From: Bacillota bacterium
GTDB lineage: Bacteria; Bacillota; UBA4882; UBA8346
Reading direction: 5' to 3'
NCBI GenBank assembly: GCA_012728785.1
Contig: JAAYEK010000030.1
Span: forward strand, 1 to 37,759
DNA: 37,759 nucleotides
The stretch's first letter is position 1; each line of letters starts with the position of its first letter. A program made the position numbers and the translations under genes. Positions 4,012-37,370 of this stretch are shown here, one piece after another. The notes beneath the pieces are model-generated. The model ran no database searches. It was given only the letters and a program-made list of their open reading frames with translations, and was not told the origin of the DNA.

Positions 4012-5211
4012 TTAGGATGTAAAGTATTTAAAAATTTCATCGAAATTGATCCCAGCGATTGTTTTTCCTTGGTACATCTCTTGTAACCTTCTTTTCCCTT
4101 CTTCCAGATGGGGCGCCCTGACTCCGTAACGAATCGACAGCGATGCCTCAATAAAAGCGGCCAAATGGTCACAAGCCTTAATAATTTTCCCATCCAACGG
4201 GCAAAACTGATCTTGATTATACTTTTCGGAGATTTCCTCACTTGATAATCCCTTAATTATTTCGCCTTGATCTATAATTTTATTTTCAAATTCATCCTCC
4301 ACAAAAAACCGGATTTCTCGATGCCAGGCGGGTGGTAGTAACGGTAAGATTCTCTCTTCCACCTGAATTCCCTCATACTCCTTGATCAAGTCTTGAAGGC
4401 CTTCGATCGAGCTTTTCACCGGCGATACAATATCCCTGGTCAATACTTCCGGAAGATCATGAAAAAGAGCGCCGAAGTAATTATTATAGATCCGACGGTC
4501 GCAACCATCAATCTCAATCGTGCATAAATAAGCCAACATGGCTACAATGAGCATATGGCCCAATACCGAAGTCTTCGGAAGGCGCGGCGACTGGGCCCAT
4601 CGTTGTTGAAACCGAAGTTGGCCGCAGAGATCGATGAAGCCGAAAGATTTCTTGCCGAGGGATATTTTTTGGACACCGATCAGATCGAAATAGTCTTCAA
4701 TTTCATTTTCAATCTCTTCCTTGGTCCGTTCGATTCCATAAATAAACGGGTTCATGGTATAAATTATTTTAAACTCCCAATTGGTCGCGAGATAATGGGC
4801 TGCTTTTAATATTTTCCGTTCGAGCTTATATTGAGCAGGTTCTCCCAACAAGTACTCCCGAAACCTACCGGCAAAATTTCCTTTAAGGTTACCGATATCC
4901 GGTATTAATTGTTCCAAGACCCATTCATTGAGTTCCCTGCCTTTCCGATCCATCATCTGATGAAATACCGGTGGTTTAATATCAGTTAAAATCAACCGGT
5001 GGAGAAACTCAAAAAGGCCGCCCTCAATCAGACTAATCCAATTGATGGCGGCGTTCCGCTCATAGGTTTCATACTTGGCAATTACAAAAGCGATCAGCAT
5101 TTTATGGGCTTGTTTGTCCAATTCGGTTAGTTCCACAGGGCGGACATGATCATTCCACCGCTGGATGCTGGCAGCATCATAAAACCGTTCAATAATTCCT
5201 TTTCCAATCAT
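4012..5211 (-). CDS. HD-domain phosphohydrolase (YfbR-like)
   Basis: Metal-dependent phosphohydrolase of the HD superfamily. The C-terminal half carries the HD signature: H219 in SVLGHM, H251-D252 in ALFHDLPEVL, and D348 in KACDHLAAF. The spacing resembles 5'-deoxynucleotidase YfbR. The N-terminal half (residues 1-195) is helical and also has a well-spaced set of histidines, but I do not recognise it. At 399 aa it is about twice the size of YfbR, so it may be a two-domain version. GAGGTAGAAAT precedes the ATG. The partner HAD phosphatase gene lies downstream, which suggests a nucleotide or metabolite clean-up pair. The specific substrate is unknown. Confidence 0.8.
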   Translation of the reverse strand: MIGKGIIERFYDAASIQRWNDHVRPVELTELDKQAHKMLIAFVIAKYETYERNAAINWISLIEGGLFEFLHRLILTDIKPPVFHQMMDRKGRELNEWVLEQLIPDIGNLKGNFAGRFREYLLGEPAQYKLERKILKAAHYLATNWEFKIIYTMNPFIYGIERTKEEIENEIEDYFDLIGVQKISLGKKSFGFIDLCGQLRFQQRWAQSPRLPKTSVLGHMLIVAMLAYLCTIEIDGCDRRIYNNYFGALFHDLPEVLTRDIVSPVKSSIEGLQDLIKEYEGIQVEERILPLLPPAWHREIRFFVEDEFENKIIDQGEIIKGLSSEEISEKYNQDQFCPLDGKIIKACDHLAAFIEASLSIRYGVRAPHLEEGKRRLQEMYQGKTIAGINFDEIFKYFTS

Positions 5212-19835: not shown

Positions 19836-20540
19836 TCACCCCAGATCAAGCTCAGCCAGGAACTTAGCGGTCTTTAGCTTTGCTTTCTCAAGATCGCCAT
19901 GGATAATATCCGGATCTTGTTTGTCTTCACGCAAACCCAGTCTTTTAAGGGCGATACTCTCAATCATGACTATGATCCACTGGATAACTTCATCATCGGT
20001 TTCTTTTTCAAATCCCTGTTTTAGACTTGCTAACAGTTTATTTTTGAGTTCAGGCAGTCGGAAATGTATTTGACGATGAGCGCTGGCAGCGGTTATGCGT
20101 AATTTTGAGTTCTTTTCAGTTAATAAATGATGAGTAAGAATAGGTATATCTTCTTCAATTCCTACCCATCCTAACACAAAAGTAGCAACTTCTCGATGAG
20201 ATTCTTGTTCATGTTGTATAAATTCACGCGCTAACTTTCCTGCATAAGAACTCTTTATAGTACCTAAGATTTGCAAGATATCAGCTAACATATTATGATC
20301 TTTTTCATCTTTAATCTTTTTTAATAGAAATTGCTCAATATTAGGGCGTCTTGTAAAGGATGCTCTGATATCGTAATAAAAATCCATATTTTCGCGACGC
20401 CTTAATAAATCATAATGATAATCAATAATTTCATAAGAATTGTCAGATAACAAAAGTTTATTAAACTTTAAATGTTCTGTGAAGTCCCCTCCACTAGCTT
20501 GTGCGTGTTTATATGCTTCTTCTAATTTTTCAATATTCAT
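19836..20540 (-). CDS. HEAT-repeat protein, probable immunity partner of the upstream toxin
   Basis: All-helical protein of about 234 aa. Repeats are visible at about 85-190 in units such as MLADILQILGTIKSSYAGKL, HREVATFVLGWVGIEEDI and SKLRITAASAHRQI, typical of HEAT/PBS-lyase-like repeats. No catalytic motif is seen. I choose the ATG at 20540 because AAAGGTGAT precedes it; an in-frame ATG upstream would run into the toxin stop. It starts 24 bases after the DUF4280-HNH gene. HEAT-like proteins are known as immunity proteins in polymorphic toxin loci, so immunity is inferred from the pairing and not proven. Confidence 0.7.
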   Translation of the reverse strand: MNIEKLEEAYKHAQASGGDFTEHLKFNKLLLSDNSYEIIDYHYDLLRRRENMDFYYDIRASFTRRPNIEQFLLKKIKDEKDHNMLADILQILGTIKSSYAGKLAREFIQHEQESHREVATFVLGWVGIEEDIPILTHHLLTEKNSKLRITAASAHRQIHFRLPELKNKLLASLKQGFEKETDDEVIQWIIVMIESIALKRLGLREDKQDPDIIHGDLEKAKLKTAKFLAELDLG

Positions 20541-20563
20541 AGTTATCACCTTTCTCAAATACA

Positions 20564-21898
20564 TCATTTATACTTACTTGGTGGATATAGATGGTACGTT
20601 TCTCCACAGGTAATATGCGTGTCTCGATGCGCTTTTTTCGGGATGGTTTCCATATTATCAACCACGTCCAATTTCTTTTTCTTTTCAATTATTTTTTCAG
20701 TATAAAGCGGTTTCTTATGTGAAACCTCATACCTTTCCGGTACTTTTTTACCATTCGTCTTCTTAATGAAATCTCTTGCTTCTTGGCTTAAACCACTGTT
20801 GGGATCATCCGCATCCCGCAATAATGCTTTCCGCCTCTCACTCATACTTCGATAAAATTTCTTGGGTTTGAAATTCGGATTCGGCGCCGGCCTCGTCCCC
20901 GTATTCCCTGCCGCTTTCGTCTGCCCAACAGCATCTATCTTTCCTGATTTCAGCTTCAAAGCCGAGGTTGTGCTTTTCCCCCAGCCTCTGGCTATTTTGA
21001 GCTTCCCGGCGGCTGTATCTCCAGTTGCTTTTGTTTGGGTGGATGCAGTCTGATCCATCACTGCTTTAGAGGCGACCTTGTTCGTACCGTCAGCTATCAT
21101 GAAAGGAGCTAGGTAAGGCGCTGTTGCTAATGCGCATGCGCCGACCATTGTGCCGATGAGTTCCGCGTTATGGTAAGCTTCTGGGCCTATCTTCTCTTTT
21201 ACAGGGTTCCTGGATTCCTTTTCATTCCCGCTCAGTCCCCGGAATATATCTTGGGCGCCTTCAGCAACATTAGAAAGACCTGTTGTTCCGCAAAGCGCTA
21301 CAGTGGCTACACCTGCTGCCGCTACACAACCGGCTACTAATAGGATTGGTAATGAAACCCCTCCAGCAATAACCCCTCCAACTGCGATAGCCAACTTAAG
21401 TGCAGATGCAGCAATAAAACATGACAAACCGCCACTAAGTACTTTTGTTAATCCTTCTCCGGCCCTGTCCCAATCAACTTCGCGTTGCCCATCTTTCTCG
21501 ATGCTTATCTTCCCGCCCCAGATGCACACATGCTTGGAGCAGTCAAGCAACGCCGGGGCCCCGTCCACCAGCATGTCTTCCTTGCCGAAGATCCAGGGCA
21601 TAGTCACATTTGGTATGCAGGGCATTTTTTTCAGTCTGCCATCGTTGGCGGCGGTAGCTGCTGCCACGGTAGGATTGGTCAGACTGCGGCATTTCCCGAA
21701 AGACGGGATATTTACCATGGGCTTAAAATCCATAATATTAGCTTGCTGCTTACCTTGGATAAGTATTGATTTCCGGTTCGGGATCTTTAGATTGCATTCT
21801 TCGTCTCCACAGCTACATTTTAGGGTCGCTCCCTCCACCACATGACTTTTAGGTTTTTCATTACTTGGTATTTTCTCTACATTTTCTTCCTCAGCCAT
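20564..21898 (-). CDS. PAAR-like (DUF4280) protein with HNH-type C-terminal toxin
   Basis: Polymorphic-toxin architecture in 444 aa. Residues 18-135 match DUF4280, a PAAR-like spike domain, with cysteines C28, C30, C35, C70, C94, C120 and C125. Residues 156-205 are glycine/alanine-rich and hydrophobic, a likely membrane-insertion or hinge part. A low-complexity linker follows. The tail (about 350-444) has an HNH/EndoVII-like pattern: YEVSHKKPLY (E391, H394), N415, H424 and H428. In known systems DUF4280 proteins load onto contractile injection devices. No such device is in this window. The next gene downstream is a candidate immunity protein. Catalytic residues are my reading of the pattern. 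Confidence 0.75.
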   Translation of the reverse strand: MAEEENVEKIPSNEKPKSHVVEGATLKCSCGDEECNLKIPNRKSILIQGKQQANIMDFKPMVNIPSFGKCRSLTNPTVAAATAANDGRLKKMPCIPNVTMPWIFGKEDMLVDGAPALLDCSKHVCIWGGKISIEKDGQREVDWDRAGEGLTKVLSGGLSCFIAASALKLAIAVGGVIAGGVSLPILLVAGCVAAAGVATVALCGTTGLSNVAEGAQDIFRGLSGNEKESRNPVKEKIGPEAYHNAELIGTMVGACALATAPYLAPFMIADGTNKVASKAVMDQTASTQTKATGDTAAGKLKIARGWGKSTTSALKLKSGKIDAVGQTKAAGNTGTRPAPNPNFKPKKFYRSMSERRKALLRDADDPNSGLSQEARDFIKKTNGKKVPERYEVSHKKPLYTEKIIEKKKKLDVVDNMETIPKKAHRDTHITCGETYHLYPPSKYK

Positions 21899-21964
21899 GT
21901 TTTCCCTCCCCCCGTTTTATAAAAAATTTGGCTTTGTTTTAAATAAGGATGAGAATGAAATACT

Positions 21965-22036
21965 CACCACGAAGGCACGAAGGGGAACGGAAGAATTGAT
22001 TTTCTTCTTCCCTCCGCCTTCGTGCTCTTCGTGGTG
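21965..22036. repeat. Imperfect 19/20-bp inverted repeat upstream of the toxin gene
   Basis: CACCACGAAGGCACGAAGG (21965-21983) pairs with CCTTCGTGCTCTTCGTGGTG (22017-22036) with a single bulge; inner A/G-rich and T/C-rich arms extend it. The arms are themselves internally repetitive (ACGAAGG twice). The rest of 21899-22170 holds a second word-like run at about 22060-22150 built on CAATT/TACATT. No gene or clear promoter seen. Confidence 0.7.
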
Positions 22037-22170
22037 GTAATGTTTTGAAGTATTCAACGTCATTAGCAATTTGCAATTTAGAATTTACAATGAAACCATT
22101 TTGTGGGGTTTAGTAATTGTAAAATGTCAATTGTACATTGTACATTAACCAACCTGGCTGCCTTTCCGTC

Positions 22171-22563
22171 TTACACCTCAACCGGATCTTCGGGGTGGGC
22201 TTCATTCCAAAGAGCGATGATCTCTTCCTCGCTCTTGCCGATATTATCAGAGTTTATCCATTTACCCCTAAACCCTGCGTTGATGCGTTTGTTCAGATTC
22301 GGGTTGACCCGGACTTTAATAGCCACGGAACCGTCACTTTTACCAATGGGTTGATAGTGAGTACTGTTTGGTAATTTGACGATCCGCCCACTTTTAAGGG
22401 CGGACTCGAGCTGTACGTCCAACTCGGAAAGCACCGACTGTATGCTGCCGCGGCTTTGGTTAGTGGCGGCAACGAGGTTTTCGATTAGCTCTTCGCTAGT
22501 CATCGGTTCGGCCCGATTCAACCGTGGTCTAAATTTCGTCCATGCTTGAAGTTTTTTTGCCAT
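22171..22563 (-). CDS. HU-like DNA-binding protein
   Basis: 130 aa. The central part has the HU/IHF pattern: an N-terminal helical pair (SEELIENLVAATNQSRGSIQ, SVLSELDVQLESALKSGR) followed by the strand VKLPNSTHYQP (62-72). A conserved-looking stretch VRVNPNLNKRINAGFRGKWIN (84-104) replaces the usual DNA-binding arm. It resembles atypical HU-domain proteins more than classic 90-aa HU. AAGGAGG is placed correctly before the ATG. The array of 21-22 bp iterons lies about 40 bases upstream of its start, which makes autoregulation or organised binding there an attractive inference. Confidence 0.6.
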   Translation of the reverse strand: MAKKLQAWTKFRPRLNRAEPMTSEELIENLVAATNQSRGSIQSVLSELDVQLESALKSGRIVKLPNSTHYQPIGKSDGSVAIKVRVNPNLNKRINAGFRGKWINSDNIGKSEEEIIALWNEAHPEDPVEV

Positions 22564-22604: not shown

Positions 22605-22796
22605 ATACACTATAGTGTTTGTCATGATACACTATAGTTTTTGTCGCAATACACTACGTTCTTGATGTCATACACTACGTTCTTGTCGTAATACGCTACG
22701 TTCTTGATGTCTTACACTACGTTCTTGTCGTAATACACTATAGTTCTTGCTGTCATACACTATAGTGTTTACCGTGATACACTATAGTGTATTTTG
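22605..22796. repeat. Array of nine helically phased iterons
   Basis: Nine units start at 22605, 22627, 22649, 22670, 22691, 22712, 22733, 22755 and 22777, a spacing of 21 or 22 bases or two helix turns. Units 1, 8 and 9 carry the perfect 12-bp palindrome ACACTATAGTGT; units 2 and 7 carry ACACTATAGT; units 3-6 carry ACACTACGTTCT or a one-base variant. Units 3/5 and 4/6 match as pairs, so the centre grew by duplicating a 42-bp dimer. The gap 22564-22850 holds nothing else. Candidate operator, centromere-like or origin-like site. Confidence 0.93.
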
Positions 22797-22850: not shown

Positions 22851-23168
22851 CTACGCAACCGCTTTAATCGCATTCTTCAACACCGCCAGGGCCGCATTGA
22901 TCGCCTTTTCGGCTTCGACGGAGATAATGCCTTTGCCGGTAAGTCCTATTGTTTTGGCGGCATTGATCAGGCTGTCGGTTAAAATCTGGGCTATTCTATG
23001 GTCGATCTCTCCAATTATCCGATTGGTTTCAACTTTGGCGATCTCCTTTGCCAGTTTTTTCAGCTCGGCTTCAACATATTCGTAAGCTTTCGGTACAGAA
23101 TCGCCTAGGCTGACCCGCGCGGCCTCCAGCATTTCCTTGAGAACCTCTTTTCCGTCAAAACTCGCCAT
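22851..23168 (-). CDS. Small all-helical hypothetical protein
   Basis: 105 aa, no signal peptide, no cysteine, rich in alanine, lysine and glutamate. It is predicted to be amphipathic helices from end to end (for example AELKKLAKEIAKVETNRI and AEKAINAALAVLKNAIKAVA). I do not recognise a family. The ribosome-binding site GGAGGTGA is ideal. The lipoprotein gene lies 121 bases upstream on the same strand and the iterons begin about 55 bases downstream. The gap to the lipoprotein gene is a word-like run of GTCAAAAG and its complement. Confidence 0.7.
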   Translation of the reverse strand: MASFDGKEVLKEMLEAARVSLGDSVPKAYEYVEAELKKLAKEIAKVETNRIIGEIDHRIAQILTDSLINAAKTIGLTGKGIISVEAEKAINAALAVLKNAIKAVA

Positions 23169-23775: not shown

Positions 23776-23921
23776 GTTTTCACCTCCTTTTTTTAAATCT
23801 ATGGAAGAAAAAGACTAGTATATAGTTTCTATGTTTGTTAAATAGTTCCTGCCGGATTAAATAATTTTTTGGGATTAAATTGTATTGTTTGGGAATTGTT
23901 GTGGGAATATAAAACGTTAGA

Positions 23922-23930
23922 TGATATAAT
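23922..23930 (+). promoter_or_regulatory. Extended -10 promoter for the AbrB-like gene
   Basis: TG-A-TATAAT gives an extended -10 with no good -35. A second weaker pair, TTGTTT (23885-23890) and TATAAA (23908-23913), spacer 17, lies just upstream. Confidence 0.55.
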
Positions 23931-23964
23931 GGGATTATTATTGGCGCGAGGTGATGAAACTATT

Positions 23965-24198
23965 ATGGAATCAGTAGGAATAATTAGGTTAATTGATCAT
24001 GTGGGAAGAGTAGTTTTACCAATGGAATTACGCAATACTATGAATTTAGGAGAAAATGCCCCCTTGGAGATTTTTGTTGACGGTAATAAAATTGTCCTTA
24101 AAAAATATTTATCCGGCTGTTTATTTTGCGGTAATGGGGATGGGTTGACGGATATTAAGGGGAAGAAAGTGTGCGGGGTGTGTTGGGAGGAGATTTAA
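23965..24198 (+). CDS. AbrB/SpoVT-type regulator with C-terminal zinc ribbon
   Basis: 77 aa. Residues 1-48 form a swapped-hairpin AbrB DNA-binding domain (GIIRLIDHVGRVVLPMELRNTMNL, with LEIFVDGNKIVLKKY). Residues 52-73 are a zinc ribbon, CLFC and CGVC. This is a transition-state-regulator design common in Clostridia. I choose the ATG at 23965 because AGGTGAT is nine bases upstream and the AbrB domain begins exactly there; the longer in-frame start at 23869 adds residues unlike the family. Transcribed away from the lipoprotein gene. Targets unknown. Confidence 0.85.
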   Translation: MESVGIIRLIDHVGRVVLPMELRNTMNLGENAPLEIFVDGNKIVLKKYLSGCLFCGNGDGLTDIKGKKVCGVCWEEI

Positions 24199-24823: not shown

Positions 24824-25228
24824 ATGGATAAATTTTCTCCAGAATTACGAAGCGCAACAATGAGAGCTGTTCATTCTAAAAAGACCAAACTAGAAGATTC
24901 CGTTTCTAAAGCTCTTTGGAAAAAAGGCGTTCGATTTCGAAGAAATGTTGTAGACTTAGTTGGAAAACCTGATATTTCAATAAAAAGGGAAAGGTTTGTC
25001 TTATTTATCGATTCTTGTTTTTGGCATGGTTGTGAGGAACATTGTAGGTTGCCAGAAACTAATAAAGATTATTGGACTAAAAAGATCGAAAGAAACCGTG
25101 AACGCGATCAAAAGATAACTAATTATTATTTAAATGCAGGCTGGAATATTGTAAGGATTTGGGAACACGAGTTGAAAGTTGACTTTAACCAGACTATTCT
25201 CAAGATAATAACAAAAAGTAGATTATAA
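24824..25228 (+). CDS. vsr: Very short patch repair endonuclease Vsr
   Basis: Nicks next to T:G mismatches that arise when 5-methylcytosine deaminates. Family signatures: RSATMRAVHSKKTKLE at the N-terminus, GKPDI at 47-51 (catalytic D50), FIDSCFWHGCEEH at 61-73 (metal and intercalating residues), the NRERD segment at 91-95, and RIWEHE at 111-116. 134 aa is normal. It converges on the small helical gene that ends at 25232 and belongs to the restriction-modification island with the C5 methylase. Confidence 0.96.
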   Translation: MDKFSPELRSATMRAVHSKKTKLEDSVSKALWKKGVRFRRNVVDLVGKPDISIKRERFVLFIDSCFWHGCEEHCRLPETNKDYWTKKIERNRERDQKITNYYLNAGWNIVRIWEHELKVDFNQTILKIITKSRL

Positions 25229-25231
25229 GCT

Positions 25232-25480
25232 TTACTTTTTCTTTTTAGACTGTTGATACTCGACGTTTAACTTAATTGCTCTTTTAAGTTGAGATTGAAC
25301 AGTTCGGTTCAAATTCTTAAATTCCTTATTTTGACCCATTTCAAAGATAAAATAGTCTGCTTCTTCTTCTTTGCAAAGGTCGACAAATTTTCCGGCCCGT
25401 TTGAGACGGGACTCAACATCAGAAGCTGATTCATTTTTAAGTCCCACTTCATCCATTAACCAATCTTTAAAGTCTCCCAT
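25232..25480 (-). CDS. Small helical protein of the restriction-modification island
   Basis: 82 aa from the ATG at 25480, overlapping the end of the methylase gene by 25 bases. It contains GDFKDWLMDEVGLKNESASDVESRLKRAGKF and a lysine-rich C-terminus, YQQSKKKK. No helix-turn-helix is evident, so it does not look like a classical controller (C) protein. The ribosome-binding site AGGAGG is 12-13 bases before the ATG, a little far, which suggests coupling to the methylase. No function can be named. Confidence 0.65.
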   Translation of the reverse strand: MGDFKDWLMDEVGLKNESASDVESRLKRAGKFVDLCKEEEADYFIFEMGQNKEFKNLNRTVQSQLKRAIKLNVEYQQSKKKK

Positions 25481-26394
25481 CCGGTTTGAGACACCTCCTG
25501 GTTTGTGGCAGTACAATATAATTTTATAGCGTTTGCAACAAATTCTGCAAGTTTAACCGGAACAGCATTTCCGATCATTTGTTCGAGTTCTGTTTTGGAA
25601 CCTACCCATTTATAGTCTTTCGGAAAAGTCTGAATTCTAGCCCTTTCAAAAGTAGTCAACGACCTGAGTTCTTGATTAAGACTGATTGGATCATTTGGAT
25701 GACCGGGGTAACCCTTTGGAACAGGTCGGTTCACACCCCTGATAGTTGGAGCAGGTTCGTCGATAGAAAATATTCCTCTCCGGTTGTAATTACGGGGATG
25801 GCGATAATAAAACTCAATTCCAAACTCATTTCCGATGTATTCTCTAATAGTCATAGCCTTATCTGAAAGCAGTTCATCAATAACGTTATTTAAAAAACCG
25901 TCTAGCGCTCCAATAAAGCCAATGCAGAAAAAACGTTTGCGATTTTGCGGTGTGCCGCAGTAACTAGCGTTAAGAATTCTTTCTGTAAGTCCATATCCGG
26001 CATTTTTATATATTTCTCGCGCTTTAGCGTATGCTTTACTTTTGTAAGCTCGATCAACGTTTTCCATTAGAAACCATTTAGGCCTAATTCTACTGATAAT
26101 CGCTGCATATGCTTTAGTTAAATTAGCTCGATCTCCTTCGCTGCGTTTACCAGCATGAGAAAAGTCTTGACAAGGAGGTCCACCGATAATAATATCAGGA
26201 TTGTAACGTTCGATCATCGGAATAACCAAATCGACATTGCTTAAGTCCTCTTGGAAAATGGGATGATTAAAATTATTTTTATAACATTCTACGGCGGGCG
26301 ACCAAGCGTCGAAGGCTGAAACCACATTAAAACCAGCGTTAGTGAATCCTTTTGACAAACCGCCACAACCGGCAAAAAGATCAACGACTCTCAT
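25456..26394 (-). CDS. DNA (cytosine-5-)-methyltransferase
   Basis: Type II modification enzyme. SAM-binding VVDLFAGCGGLSKGF (motif I) at residues 3-17, catalytic GGPPCQDFSHAG with C75 (motif IV), MENV at 110-113 (motif VI), QNRKRFF at 150-156 (motif VIII), and QMIGNAVPVKLAE near the end (motif X). 312 aa is a small but complete C5 methylase. Specificity is not readable from the enzyme; the HindVP-family endonuclease next door suggests GRCGYC. AAGGGG lies about eight bases before the ATG. Divergent from the endonuclease gene, 88 bases apart. Confidence 0.95.
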   Translation of the reverse strand: MRVVDLFAGCGGLSKGFTNAGFNVVSAFDAWSPAVECYKNNFNHPIFQEDLSNVDLVIPMIERYNPDIIIGGPPCQDFSHAGKRSEGDRANLTKAYAAIISRIRPKWFLMENVDRAYKSKAYAKAREIYKNAGYGLTERILNASYCGTPQNRKRFFCIGFIGALDGFLNNVIDELLSDKAMTIREYIGNEFGIEFYYRHPRNYNRRGIFSIDEPAPTIRGVNRPVPKGYPGHPNDPISLNQELRSLTTFERARIQTFPKDYKWVGSKTELEQMIGNAVPVKLAEFVANAIKLYCTATNQEVSQTGWETLKIG

Positions 26395-26425
26395 AGCGTT
26401 AACCCCTTATATTTTTTCTATAGCA

Positions 26426-26454
26426 AATATATCATATTTATAAAAAGACGTCAA
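26426..26454 (-). promoter_or_regulatory. Promoter of the C5 methylase gene
   Basis: Read on the minus strand: TTGACG (26449-26454), 17 bases, TATATT (26426-26431). The -35 hexamer overlaps a GACGTC site (26447-26452). Predicted transcript start is near 26419. Confidence 0.75.
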
Positions 26455-26466
26455 TATTTTGACGCC
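26447..26466. promoter_or_regulatory. Two GRCGYC motifs in the methylase/endonuclease intergenic region
   Basis: GACGTC (26447-26452) and GACGCC (26461-26466) start 14 bases apart in a short AT-rich gap. Both fit GRCGYC, the specificity recorded for the HindV system. The first sits on the methylase -35. They also form imperfect direct repeats (GACGTCAATATT and GACGCCATATT). Methylation-sensed regulation is inferred. Confidence 0.5.
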
Positions 26467-26482
26467 ATATTGAGGTGAGAAA

Positions 26483-27553
26483 ATGATTGATTTGAAGGCG
26501 CCCAGATTATATGGAATTTATAACTCTAATAGAGGTTCAAACGACTTTTGGGGTAAGAATGAGTTTAATTCCAGTTTTCCAGTAGCATTGGCATGCTATA
26601 TGCGCGATAAAAAAATTCCGGCTGTCTATCTGACGCTCAACAAAGATTTAAAAGTTACTGCATCCGAACTGTCATTTGACGATATATTCAATACCAAACA
26701 ACCGAACAACGAATTATTTTTTGCATTTGAATCAAAGTATGAACCCTATCAAGAATTCTCGCTTGAAAACATTGGAGGAATTGATCTCGTAGTTAAAAAT
26801 GATAATGGCGACTTTCTTAGACCTATTGAAATTAAACTAACTGTAATTCCTGATAATTCCACATGCTCCGAGCCGGAGAAAGAATGGGGGTCAGAAATTG
26901 TCTTTCGCCCAGCGACAACTACATACTGTGGTTTAGGAATTGCTGCTTCCTGTAAAAACGAAATGAGAAAAATTCGAAAAATTTTTGAACCAGTTTGTCA
27001 TAAGATGGTCAATTGGGGTAACCCTTTTGAAATTAACGCCAAGAGAACAATTTTACTTGATGCAATTGATGAATTTGAATATAATTGGCATTTAAAACAA
27101 AAACCATTATTAATGCAACCCATTTGGAAAACCCAAGGTAAAAGTCCAATATTAGCAAAAAACGCATTTGACATATTCGTTTGGAGTGATTTCGCTTTTA
27201 CTCGCTTATTTCTTGATTCTTCAAAAGTTAATGATAATGGAGAAGTTGTAACGCGCCAAATGAGAAGTTCCGCGAGATTAGCAAGGTTTTTATACGAAGC
27301 AAGCACTAGCGGCAAACCACGATTAGCTGAAATATACAAACAAATGACTTTCGATCTGCAAACTGACAAAGAGTTTGCTGTAAGCGGGAAGGTTACACGA
27401 CGTTACATGAATACTCCTCGAAGAGTAACGCCAGCAATTCAAAGCAGTGAATTAAACAATATTATTCTAAATGGAGGAGAGCATAAACTTAGCCCTGAAC
27501 GCCGTTTTGACCAAACAATTTATTTCACTGTAGCTCACACCCATAATAAATAA
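26483..27553 (+). CDS. HindVP-family type II restriction endonuclease
   Basis: 356 aa. The N-terminus RLYGIYNSNRGSNDFWGKNEFNSSFP and the LFFAFESKYEPYQEFSLENIGGIDLV stretch are the family hallmarks. A PD-(D/E)xK nuclease core is visible: D101 in GGIDLVV and E116-x-K118 in RPIEIKL, followed by IPDNSTC. The HindVP enzyme recognises GRCGYC; whether this one does is unproven. GAGGTGA precedes the ATG. Cognate methylase is divergent across an 88-base gap, and Vsr is on the far side of the island. Confidence 0.92.
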   Translation: MIDLKAPRLYGIYNSNRGSNDFWGKNEFNSSFPVALACYMRDKKIPAVYLTLNKDLKVTASELSFDDIFNTKQPNNELFFAFESKYEPYQEFSLENIGGIDLVVKNDNGDFLRPIEIKLTVIPDNSTCSEPEKEWGSEIVFRPATTTYCGLGIAASCKNEMRKIRKIFEPVCHKMVNWGNPFEINAKRTILLDAIDEFEYNWHLKQKPLLMQPIWKTQGKSPILAKNAFDIFVWSDFAFTRLFLDSSKVNDNGEVVTRQMRSSARLARFLYEASTSGKPRLAEIYKQMTFDLQTDKEFAVSGKVTRRYMNTPRRVTPAIQSSELNNIILNGGEHKLSPERRFDQTIYFTVAHTHNK

Positions 27554-36032: not shown

Positions 36033-37370
36033 TCATTTCTGTTTTGAAAGACTCTGGAACTTGCTGAATTCTTTCTGGAAGTAGAAATCAACCGATCCTA
36101 CCGGGCCGTTCCGTTGCTTGGCGATGATTAACTCGGTGATATTTTTCCGGTCAGTCTCCGGGTTATAATAATCTTCCCGATACAGGAACCCGACAATATC
36201 GGCGTCTTGTTCCAAAGAACCTGATTCCCGAAGATCAGCCAAAGCCGGCCTTTTGTCGGCCCGCTGTTCTACCGCCCGGGACAGCTGGGAAAGGGCAATC
36301 ACCGGAACATCTAATTCCCTTGCCAACGCCTTTAAGGAACGGGAGATATCTGAAACTTCCTGCTGTCGGTTTTCGCTTCGAGAACGTGACTGCATCAATT
36401 GCAAGTAGTCGATGATGACCAATCCCAACCCATGCTCAGCTTTGATCCTCCTGGTCTTAGCCCTGATTTCCAAGGCGGAAATTCCCGGAGTATCGTCAAT
36501 AAAGAGCATGGCTTCGGAGAGTCGCCCCAATGCATGGGAAAGTTTGGGCCAATCATCATCCTTAAGAGTGCCGGTACGAATCCGTTGGTTATCAACCCCC
36601 GCCTCGGAACAGAGTAACTTCAAGGCCAGCTGTTCCTTGGACATTTCCAAGCTGAAAATAATCGCCGGGATTTTTAGCTCTACCGCCACATGACTGCCTA
36701 AGTTTAAGGCAAAAGTGGTCTTTCCCATACTGGGCCGGGCAGCCAAGATAATCATGTCGGAAGGTTGGAGACCGGCGGTCATCCGGTCAAAATCCGGATA
36801 TCCGGTAGGCAGTCCGGTGACTCCCCCCTTGGACTCATAAAGCTTCTCGATGCGCTCGAAGGTTTCCACCAAGATACTCCGAAGACTGACAAAACCTTTA
36901 ATATTTCGCTTTTGAGAAATCTCGAAGATATCTTTTTCAGCCCGATCTAAAATTACATCCACTTCTTCGGAGCCTTCGTAACCCATTTTTACGATATTAG
37001 TGGCAACAGTGATAATCGACCGTAGCAATGACTTCTCAGCGACAATCTTAGCATAATGCTCAATATTGGCAGCAGTAGGTACGAAATTGGCCAACTGGGT
37101 CAGGTAGGACACGCCCCCGATCTTATCCAGCATACCCCGCTGTTTCAATTCTTCGGAAACGGTGATCAGATCCACCGGTTCGCCTTTATTGGCCAAATGA
37201 ACCACTACTTCGAAGATGACCCGGTGGGCTTCCCGGTAAAAATCTTCGGCGCGTAAAAGCTCGGCGCCTTTATAAATGGCATCTTTCTCCAGAAGCATCG
37301 ACCCTAAGGTCGATTGCTCGGCGTCCAGGTTCTGAGGGGGTATTCGTTCCAAAGCTGTAGCGCCGTTCAT
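36033..37370 (-). CDS. dnaB: Replicative DNA helicase DnaB
   Basis: Hexameric 5'-3' helicase of the replication fork. N-terminal primase-interacting domain begins PPQNLDAEQSTLGSMLLEKDAI. The RecA-like core has Walker A ARPSMGKTTFALN, IFSLEMSKEQL, Walker B VIIDYLQLM and DLRESGSLEQDADIVGFLYR. 445 aa is standard, with no intein. GGGAGG precedes the ATG. Apparently monocistronic here, with an AT-rich 230-base gap to the divergent MarR gene. Confidence 0.98.
   Translation of the reverse strand: MNGATALERIPPQNLDAEQSTLGSMLLEKDAIYKGAELLRAEDFYREAHRVIFEVVVHLANKGEPVDLITVSEELKQRGMLDKIGGVSYLTQLANFVPTAANIEHYAKIVAEKSLLRSIITVATNIVKMGYEGSEEVDVILDRAEKDIFEISQKRNIKGFVSLRSILVETFERIEKLYESKGGVTGLPTGYPDFDRMTAGLQPSDMIILAARPSMGKTTFALNLGSHVAVELKIPAIIFSLEMSKEQLALKLLCSEAGVDNQRIRTGTLKDDDWPKLSHALGRLSEAMLFIDDTPGISALEIRAKTRRIKAEHGLGLVIIDYLQLMQSRSRSENRQQEVSDISRSLKALARELDVPVIALSQLSRAVEQRADKRPALADLRESGSLEQDADIVGFLYREDYYNPETDRKNITELIIAKQRNGPVGSVDFYFQKEFSKFQSLSKQK

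Follow-up and report, generated by a model that had tools for sequence, protein, structure and literature searches.

A gene encoding an HU-like protein lies next to an array of nine phased, mostly palindromic repeats, and related genes in other genomes are frequently accompanied by arrays of the same period. These findings suggest, with somewhat better than even confidence, that a sequence-specific protein of the HU-HIG type and its own array of phased palindromes constitute a stand-alone module, for which we infer binding, cooperativity, autoregulation and an organising role from sequence comparison.

Structure of the array

In the window, by which we mean the whole stretch of DNA that was analysed (37,759 nucleotides), the array is flanked by two minus-strand reading frames, a 105-aa ORF and the 130-aa HU-like gene (Table 1). 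The initial annotation had described nine phased repeats, a distinct inner core with one base change that arose as a duplicated 42-bp dimer, and an HU-like gene starting about 40 bases away, and our analysis bore out each of these points. The nine units of 21-22 bp start at positions 22606, 22628, 22650, 22671, 22692, 22713, 22734, 22756 and 22778, giving spacings of 22, 22, 21, 21, 21, 21, 22 and 22, and every unit opens with TACACT or TACGCT. TRF detected both a period of 21/22 (8.5 copies) and a period of 42 (3.2 copies, score 205) at 22605-22788. The start codon of the HU-like gene, at position 22563, is 41 bp away from the array, which was the only strong 19-24 bp periodicity in the 37.7-kb window.

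The outer units (1, 2, 7, 8 and 9) retain ACACTATAGT, with the full ACACTATAGTGT present in units 1, 8 and 9; unit 9 reads ATACACTATAGTGTAT, a perfect 16-bp palindrome. The inner units 3-6 share a different core, ACACTACGTTCT, with the variant ACGCTACGTTCT in unit 5. Relative to unit 7 (CTATAGTTCTTG), the inner units have C in place of TA, a change that accounts both for their length of 21 bp, one base shorter, and for the loss of the palindrome. Units 3+4 and 5+6 are two copies of a 42-bp dimer, with 2 of 42 positions changed between them; the dimer has clearly been duplicated recently. No Rfam family matched 22605-22794, and a sigma-70 promoter scan at the array gave no convincing site, the latter counting against the module reading. 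Sub-threshold Rfam matches fell outside the array, at 21952-22114, including miRNA matches at a hairpin-forming stretch (21957-22064); dispersed copies of 22005-22064 were observed on contigs C225, C103, C10, C182 and C76.

Table 1. Coordinates of the array, its units and the two flanking reading frames in the window.
Feature	Position	Strand	Basis
HU-like gene, 130 aa, proposed cognate binder	22171..22563	-	Pfam HU-HIG, AlphaFold, Foldseek
Nine-unit array (units of 21-22 bp, most of them palindromic), intergenic, 5' of the HU-like gene	22605..22794	.	TRF and unit reading
Outer units 1-2, ACACTATAGT core, 22 bp, nearest the HU-like gene	22605..22648	.	
Inner units 3-6, ACACTACGTTCT core, 21 bp, 42-bp dimer x2	22649..22732	.	
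Outer units 7-9, ACACTATAGT core, 22 bp; unit 9 holds ATACACTATAGTGTAT	22733..22794	.	
ORF of 105 aa, no family match	22851..23168	-	

The adjacent gene encodes an HU-HIG-type protein

The window protein matched the Pfam family HU-HIG (PF18291) over residues 9-66 (29.0 bits against a cut-off of 26.2; E 1.2e-6), and 23/23 aligned relatives matched the family at E <= 0.01. A profile of the relatives, compared with the PDB, aligned residues 18-71 with the HU structure 5eka (E 7.6e-7). The same structure was retrieved by Foldseek (TMt 0.75, prob 1.00, E 1.2e-3) using an AlphaFold model of the window protein that is itself modest (pLDDT 67, pTM 0.38). The Foldseek and profile matches place the helix-helix-beta body of HU in the window protein. 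The long beta-arm is absent from the model, in which strands 69-74 and 80-85 are joined, at low confidence, by a 5-residue turn. As the model is without the arm that would make the canonical minor-groove contacts, no known mode of base reading applies to it. The C-terminal segment is conserved (W-N and P) and ends in ALWNEAHPEDP in the window protein. HU-HIG proteins have their HU domain joined to a wHTH, an Ig or a Gly-rich motif; in the window protein the C-terminal 30-35 residues match no family and are weakly modelled by AlphaFold.

Arrays accompany HU-like genes in other genomes

An ORF was scored as associated when a tandem array with a period of 20-23 or 41-46 bp lay at most 350 bp away, and control ORFs were taken from the same genomes, in random stretches amounting to 400 kb. 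Arrays were found near 36/72 HU-like copies and 13/328 control ORFs (Fisher 1e-20); the stricter controls, with an intergenic side of 200 bp or more, gave 7/144 (Fisher 2e-14). Periods near HU-like genes were almost exclusively 21, 22 and 42-44 bp, and in the scanned 12-kb relatives, as in the window, the gene-adjacent array was the sole strong 19-24 bp periodicity. Consensus units were more palindromic than their shuffles (p 6e-6), 16 of 43 being so individually at 0.05. At this threshold no array was detected for half of the HU-like copies, which counts against the module reading.

The arrays lay 3' of the gene in 24 of the 36 cases and 5' in the remaining 12. An upstream ACACTATAGTGT array as a constant companion of the family, the test proposed in the initial annotation, fails when taken literally, since relatives carry a different unit and most of their arrays are 3'. 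The idea that the array has its natural partner in the HU-like protein is well supported on comparative grounds, by co-occurrence, by the tracking of protein clade by unit sequence, and by the three arrays of this type in the genome, all joined to the gene or its remnant; the latter two lines of evidence are described below.

Unit sequence follows the protein clade

Between genomes, the similarity of arrays increased with protein identity (Mantel permutations, 0/2000). For pairs above 50% identity the excess over shuffles was 0.8 of 12 bases, falling to about zero below that value, and the arrays of the former were more alike than the non-array DNA flanking them, the pairs in both the identity and the flank comparisons not being independent. 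Paralogues within one genome showed little or no such array similarity.

By inspection, GGCTTAA-type arrays lie 3' of the gene in the IQAW clade, CTCGGCGAG arrays 5' in the ITAIRKYRPE clade, ATATCCTG arrays 5' in the YRPQIEYG clade and CCTAnTAGG arrays 3' in a further clade; these motif classes were picked by eye after the arrays had been seen, and the Mantel test is independent of them. Within the IQAW clade the window gene stands apart, in that its array is 5' and of the ACTATAGT type as opposed to GGCTTAA and 3', and this too counts against the module reading. An exact scan for CTCGGCGAG pairs in 395 genomes returned 7 matches, the reversed control giving about 6, and known arrays escaped it because the units vary. 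At two loci with 5' arrays, L074 and L078, a TATAAT-like box directly adjoins the last palindrome.

Cognate units were also found away from the gene. Pairs of TTGGCTTAA at array spacing occurred in 3/42 HU-positive genomes (G101, G135 and G167), the 353 HU-negative genomes yielding one match only, inside a coding gene. Beyond the gene-adjacent array there were three such places in G135 and two in G167, and two of the random-control arrays consisted of cognate units far from the HU gene (L144 in G101 and L149 in G135). The dispersed TTGGCTTAA places and the L144 array are mostly intergenic, and no HU-like remnants were detected near them, which argues that the cognate arrays of those genomes are not just leftovers of gene copies. 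Also in G135, a second palindromic array (ATATCATGACATCTTT, about 22 bp) was seen at about 1600-1700 of locus L169, shortly after a GGCTTAA array.

Copies within the genus and a probable lateral origin

In a partial census, the ACTATAGT type of array was found at three places in the genome, namely the window and contigs C26 and C224, each time with an HU-like gene, or what remains of one, after it in the same orientation. On C26 the array precedes a frameshifted HU-like copy, and on C224, at the contig end, 39 bp left over from an HU-like 3' coding end (82% identity). On its other side the C26 array is bordered by the 3' end of the 105-aa ORF, so this ORF was carried along in the duplication; it is probably outside the core module. 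An intact second HU-like copy, with 68% identity to that of the window, is present on C287 and a fragment on C139; these two, and a fragment in the single same-genus genome (G001), are associated with another 22-bp array having CTCTAGAG and GGCTTAAT-type cores. Mixed TTTCTCTAGAGAAA and TTGGCTTAAT units of 22 bp, a second array type, adjoin HU-like copies or fragments of the genus at L028 2857-3031, L029 4105-4200 and L027 3515-3668.

The closest outside relatives belong to the Chloroflexota (59-67% identity). Among genomes that are nearly all draft MAGs, with several HU-like copies at contig ends (L072 and L086 in relatives among them), matches were obtained in 42/395 of the Chloroflexota class and in 2/398 of the window's phylum, both from one genus; there were up to 11 matches per genome, and remnants were frequent. 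As the family is nearly confined to the Chloroflexota and so rare in its own phylum, the window module appears to have been acquired laterally, probably from the Chloroflexota, both the transfer and its direction being inferred from this distribution. The window is chromosomal (secDF, tgt, queA, dnaB), and in Chloroflexota the copies are found on contigs of Mb size, among varied neighbours. No relative of the HU-like protein was found in 72,556 plasmids, in 50,697 phages or in a scan of viral contigs. A scan of viral contigs for ACTATAGT pairs gave more than 120 stretches, several of them iteron-like and none with an HU-like relative; iteron-like rows with a spacing of about 21-23 bp, again with no HU-like relative found, were noted on L188, L193, L244 and L261. 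Reading by eye of the ORFs around 16 relatives revealed no conserved neighbour genes, and no motor gene (ParM/ParA/TubZ) was recognised next to the window copy. The earlier statement that the window holds no replication gene was not strictly right, because a DnaB-like replicative helicase is encoded at 36033-37370, 13 kb from the array.

Several neighbouring genes were recorded in passing. A MazE/AbrB-like gene lies at 23869-24198 of the window, about 1.3 kb 5' of the HU-like gene, and a similar-looking ORF was seen by eye about 0.8 kb 5' of the C287 copy (L027, about 4890-5140). At L095, an ORF read by eye as a RAYT-like transposase adjoins the HU-like copy. The window also contains a Type II restriction-modification island at 24824-27553 (Vsr endonuclease, C5 cytosine methyltransferase and HindVP-type restriction enzyme) and, at 19836-21898, a DUF4280 (PAAR-like) protein whose C-terminal part resembles a nuclease-type toxin; the adjoining HEAT-repeat protein could be its immunity partner.

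Alternative explanations

Palindromes phased with the helix and located 5' of a gene are characteristic of operators, and the array could serve some unrelated transcription factor, one that regulates the HU-like gene, without being read by the HU-like protein itself. The TATAAT-like boxes next to the 5' arrays of L074 and L078 would fit such a role. We nevertheless regard it as unlikely: a separate factor poorly explains why unit sequence tracks the HU-like clade, the arrays are mostly 3' of the gene, and there is no conserved neighbour gene. Neutral tandem duplication without function would account for the recent inner dimer and for the half of HU-like copies without a detectable array, yet it sits badly with the strong enrichment at the HU-like family, the narrow 21-22 bp period, and the palindromicity and conservation above flanks of the units. 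Tandem duplications near a gene can be co-inherited, and conservation above the flanking DNA argues against this explanation, albeit from non-independent pairs; we consider a neutral origin very improbable.

The sporadic distribution in the two phyla, the many matches and remnants within single genomes, the lack of fixed neighbours and the transfer between phyla would all be expected of a selfish gene-and-repeat element that multiplies and decays like REP with its RAYT transposase and has no host role. However, the HU-like protein is without a catalytic domain and has no mobility gene as a consistent neighbour, so that we hold this reading to be quite unlikely. The combination of phased iterons and a small DNA-binding gene recalls ParR/parC or StbA, and the initial annotation had named a plasmid or phage origin among the possible roles of the array. 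Origin iterons, or a parS/parC-like partition site, of a plasmid, phage or integrated element seem to us hardly tenable: the plasmid, phage and viral-contig searches described above brought up no relatives, no Rep or ParA-type gene is adjacent, and the copies are located on a chromosomal window or on Mb-size contigs.

A model for the module

In the model that we favour, in which the HU-HIG-type protein reads its own array, one dimer would bind each palindrome. Since the palindromes are phased two helical turns apart, the dimers would be on one face of the DNA, where those on successive turns could cooperate and build a nucleoprotein complex of bent or filament-like form. Where the array is 5', as in the window and the 5'-array clades, it covers the upstream or promoter region and the protein would probably repress its own synthesis, which the TATAAT-like box abutting the last palindrome of L074 and L078 suits. 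Arrays 3' of the gene and elsewhere in the chromosome may be further docking sites, used for local DNA organisation or regulation. The window module would have been acquired, probably from Chloroflexota, then duplicated in the genome and partly decayed.

A wider reading, to which we give a little less than even weight, is that these are an undescribed class of mobile chromosomal modules, in which armless HU-family proteins and their own phased palindromic arrays co-diversify into protein-site pairs that are mutually orthogonal, share one chromosome and give it local organisation. Our comparisons suggest an undescribed family of DNA-binding proteins that may each carry their own binding sites. 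If true, this would be a new route to specificity for the HU fold, HU proteins being otherwise low-specificity DNA benders; it would provide several naturally occurring protein-site pairs with which to test the evolution of specificity, and could expose a layer of chromosome organisation, or of selfish spread, in Chloroflexota. Since diverged pairs are numerous, the gene-array pairing is open to direct testing by co-variation or swapping.

Comparison with known systems

Nothing in the literature searched on HU, HU-HIG and repeat arrays, a scope outside which the main 2017 HU/IHF clade survey fell, describes phased arrays as companions of HU genes, and we know of no report of HU-HIG genes so accompanied. 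The window protein is linked to HU-HIG (PF18291) and to the HU/IHF (DNABII) superfamily by its family match and its HU fold. It differs from them in that the match covers only its first half, in having, in the model, a short turn for the long beta-arm, and in an added C-terminal WN..P segment. IHF and TF1 of phage SPO1 are sequence-selective relatives of HU that share its fold, and a sequence preference is what we propose for the window protein. However, IHF and TF1 act through long arms on single sites and not on self-adjacent arrays, whereas the HU-like module, armless by the protein's model, has an array next to its own gene.

In ParR-parC, TubR-tubC and StbA, a small DNA-binding protein is encoded beside a phased array of short repeats and is often autoregulated. 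The HU-like module resembles them in joining a small DNA-binding gene to phased short repeats, but has a protein of another fold and no motor ATPase or partner gene; it is chromosomal, its arrays are more often 3', and it has dispersed copies. REP/REPIN sequences with their RAYT genes are palindromic repeats located beside a cognate gene, with copies elsewhere and a repeat type that tracks the gene clade. Palindromes by the gene, further copies and clade tracking are likewise found in the HU-like module, which is set apart by an HU-family protein as against a Y1 HuH transposase, and by tandem, phased units of 21-22 bp with few dispersed copies as against paired hairpins.
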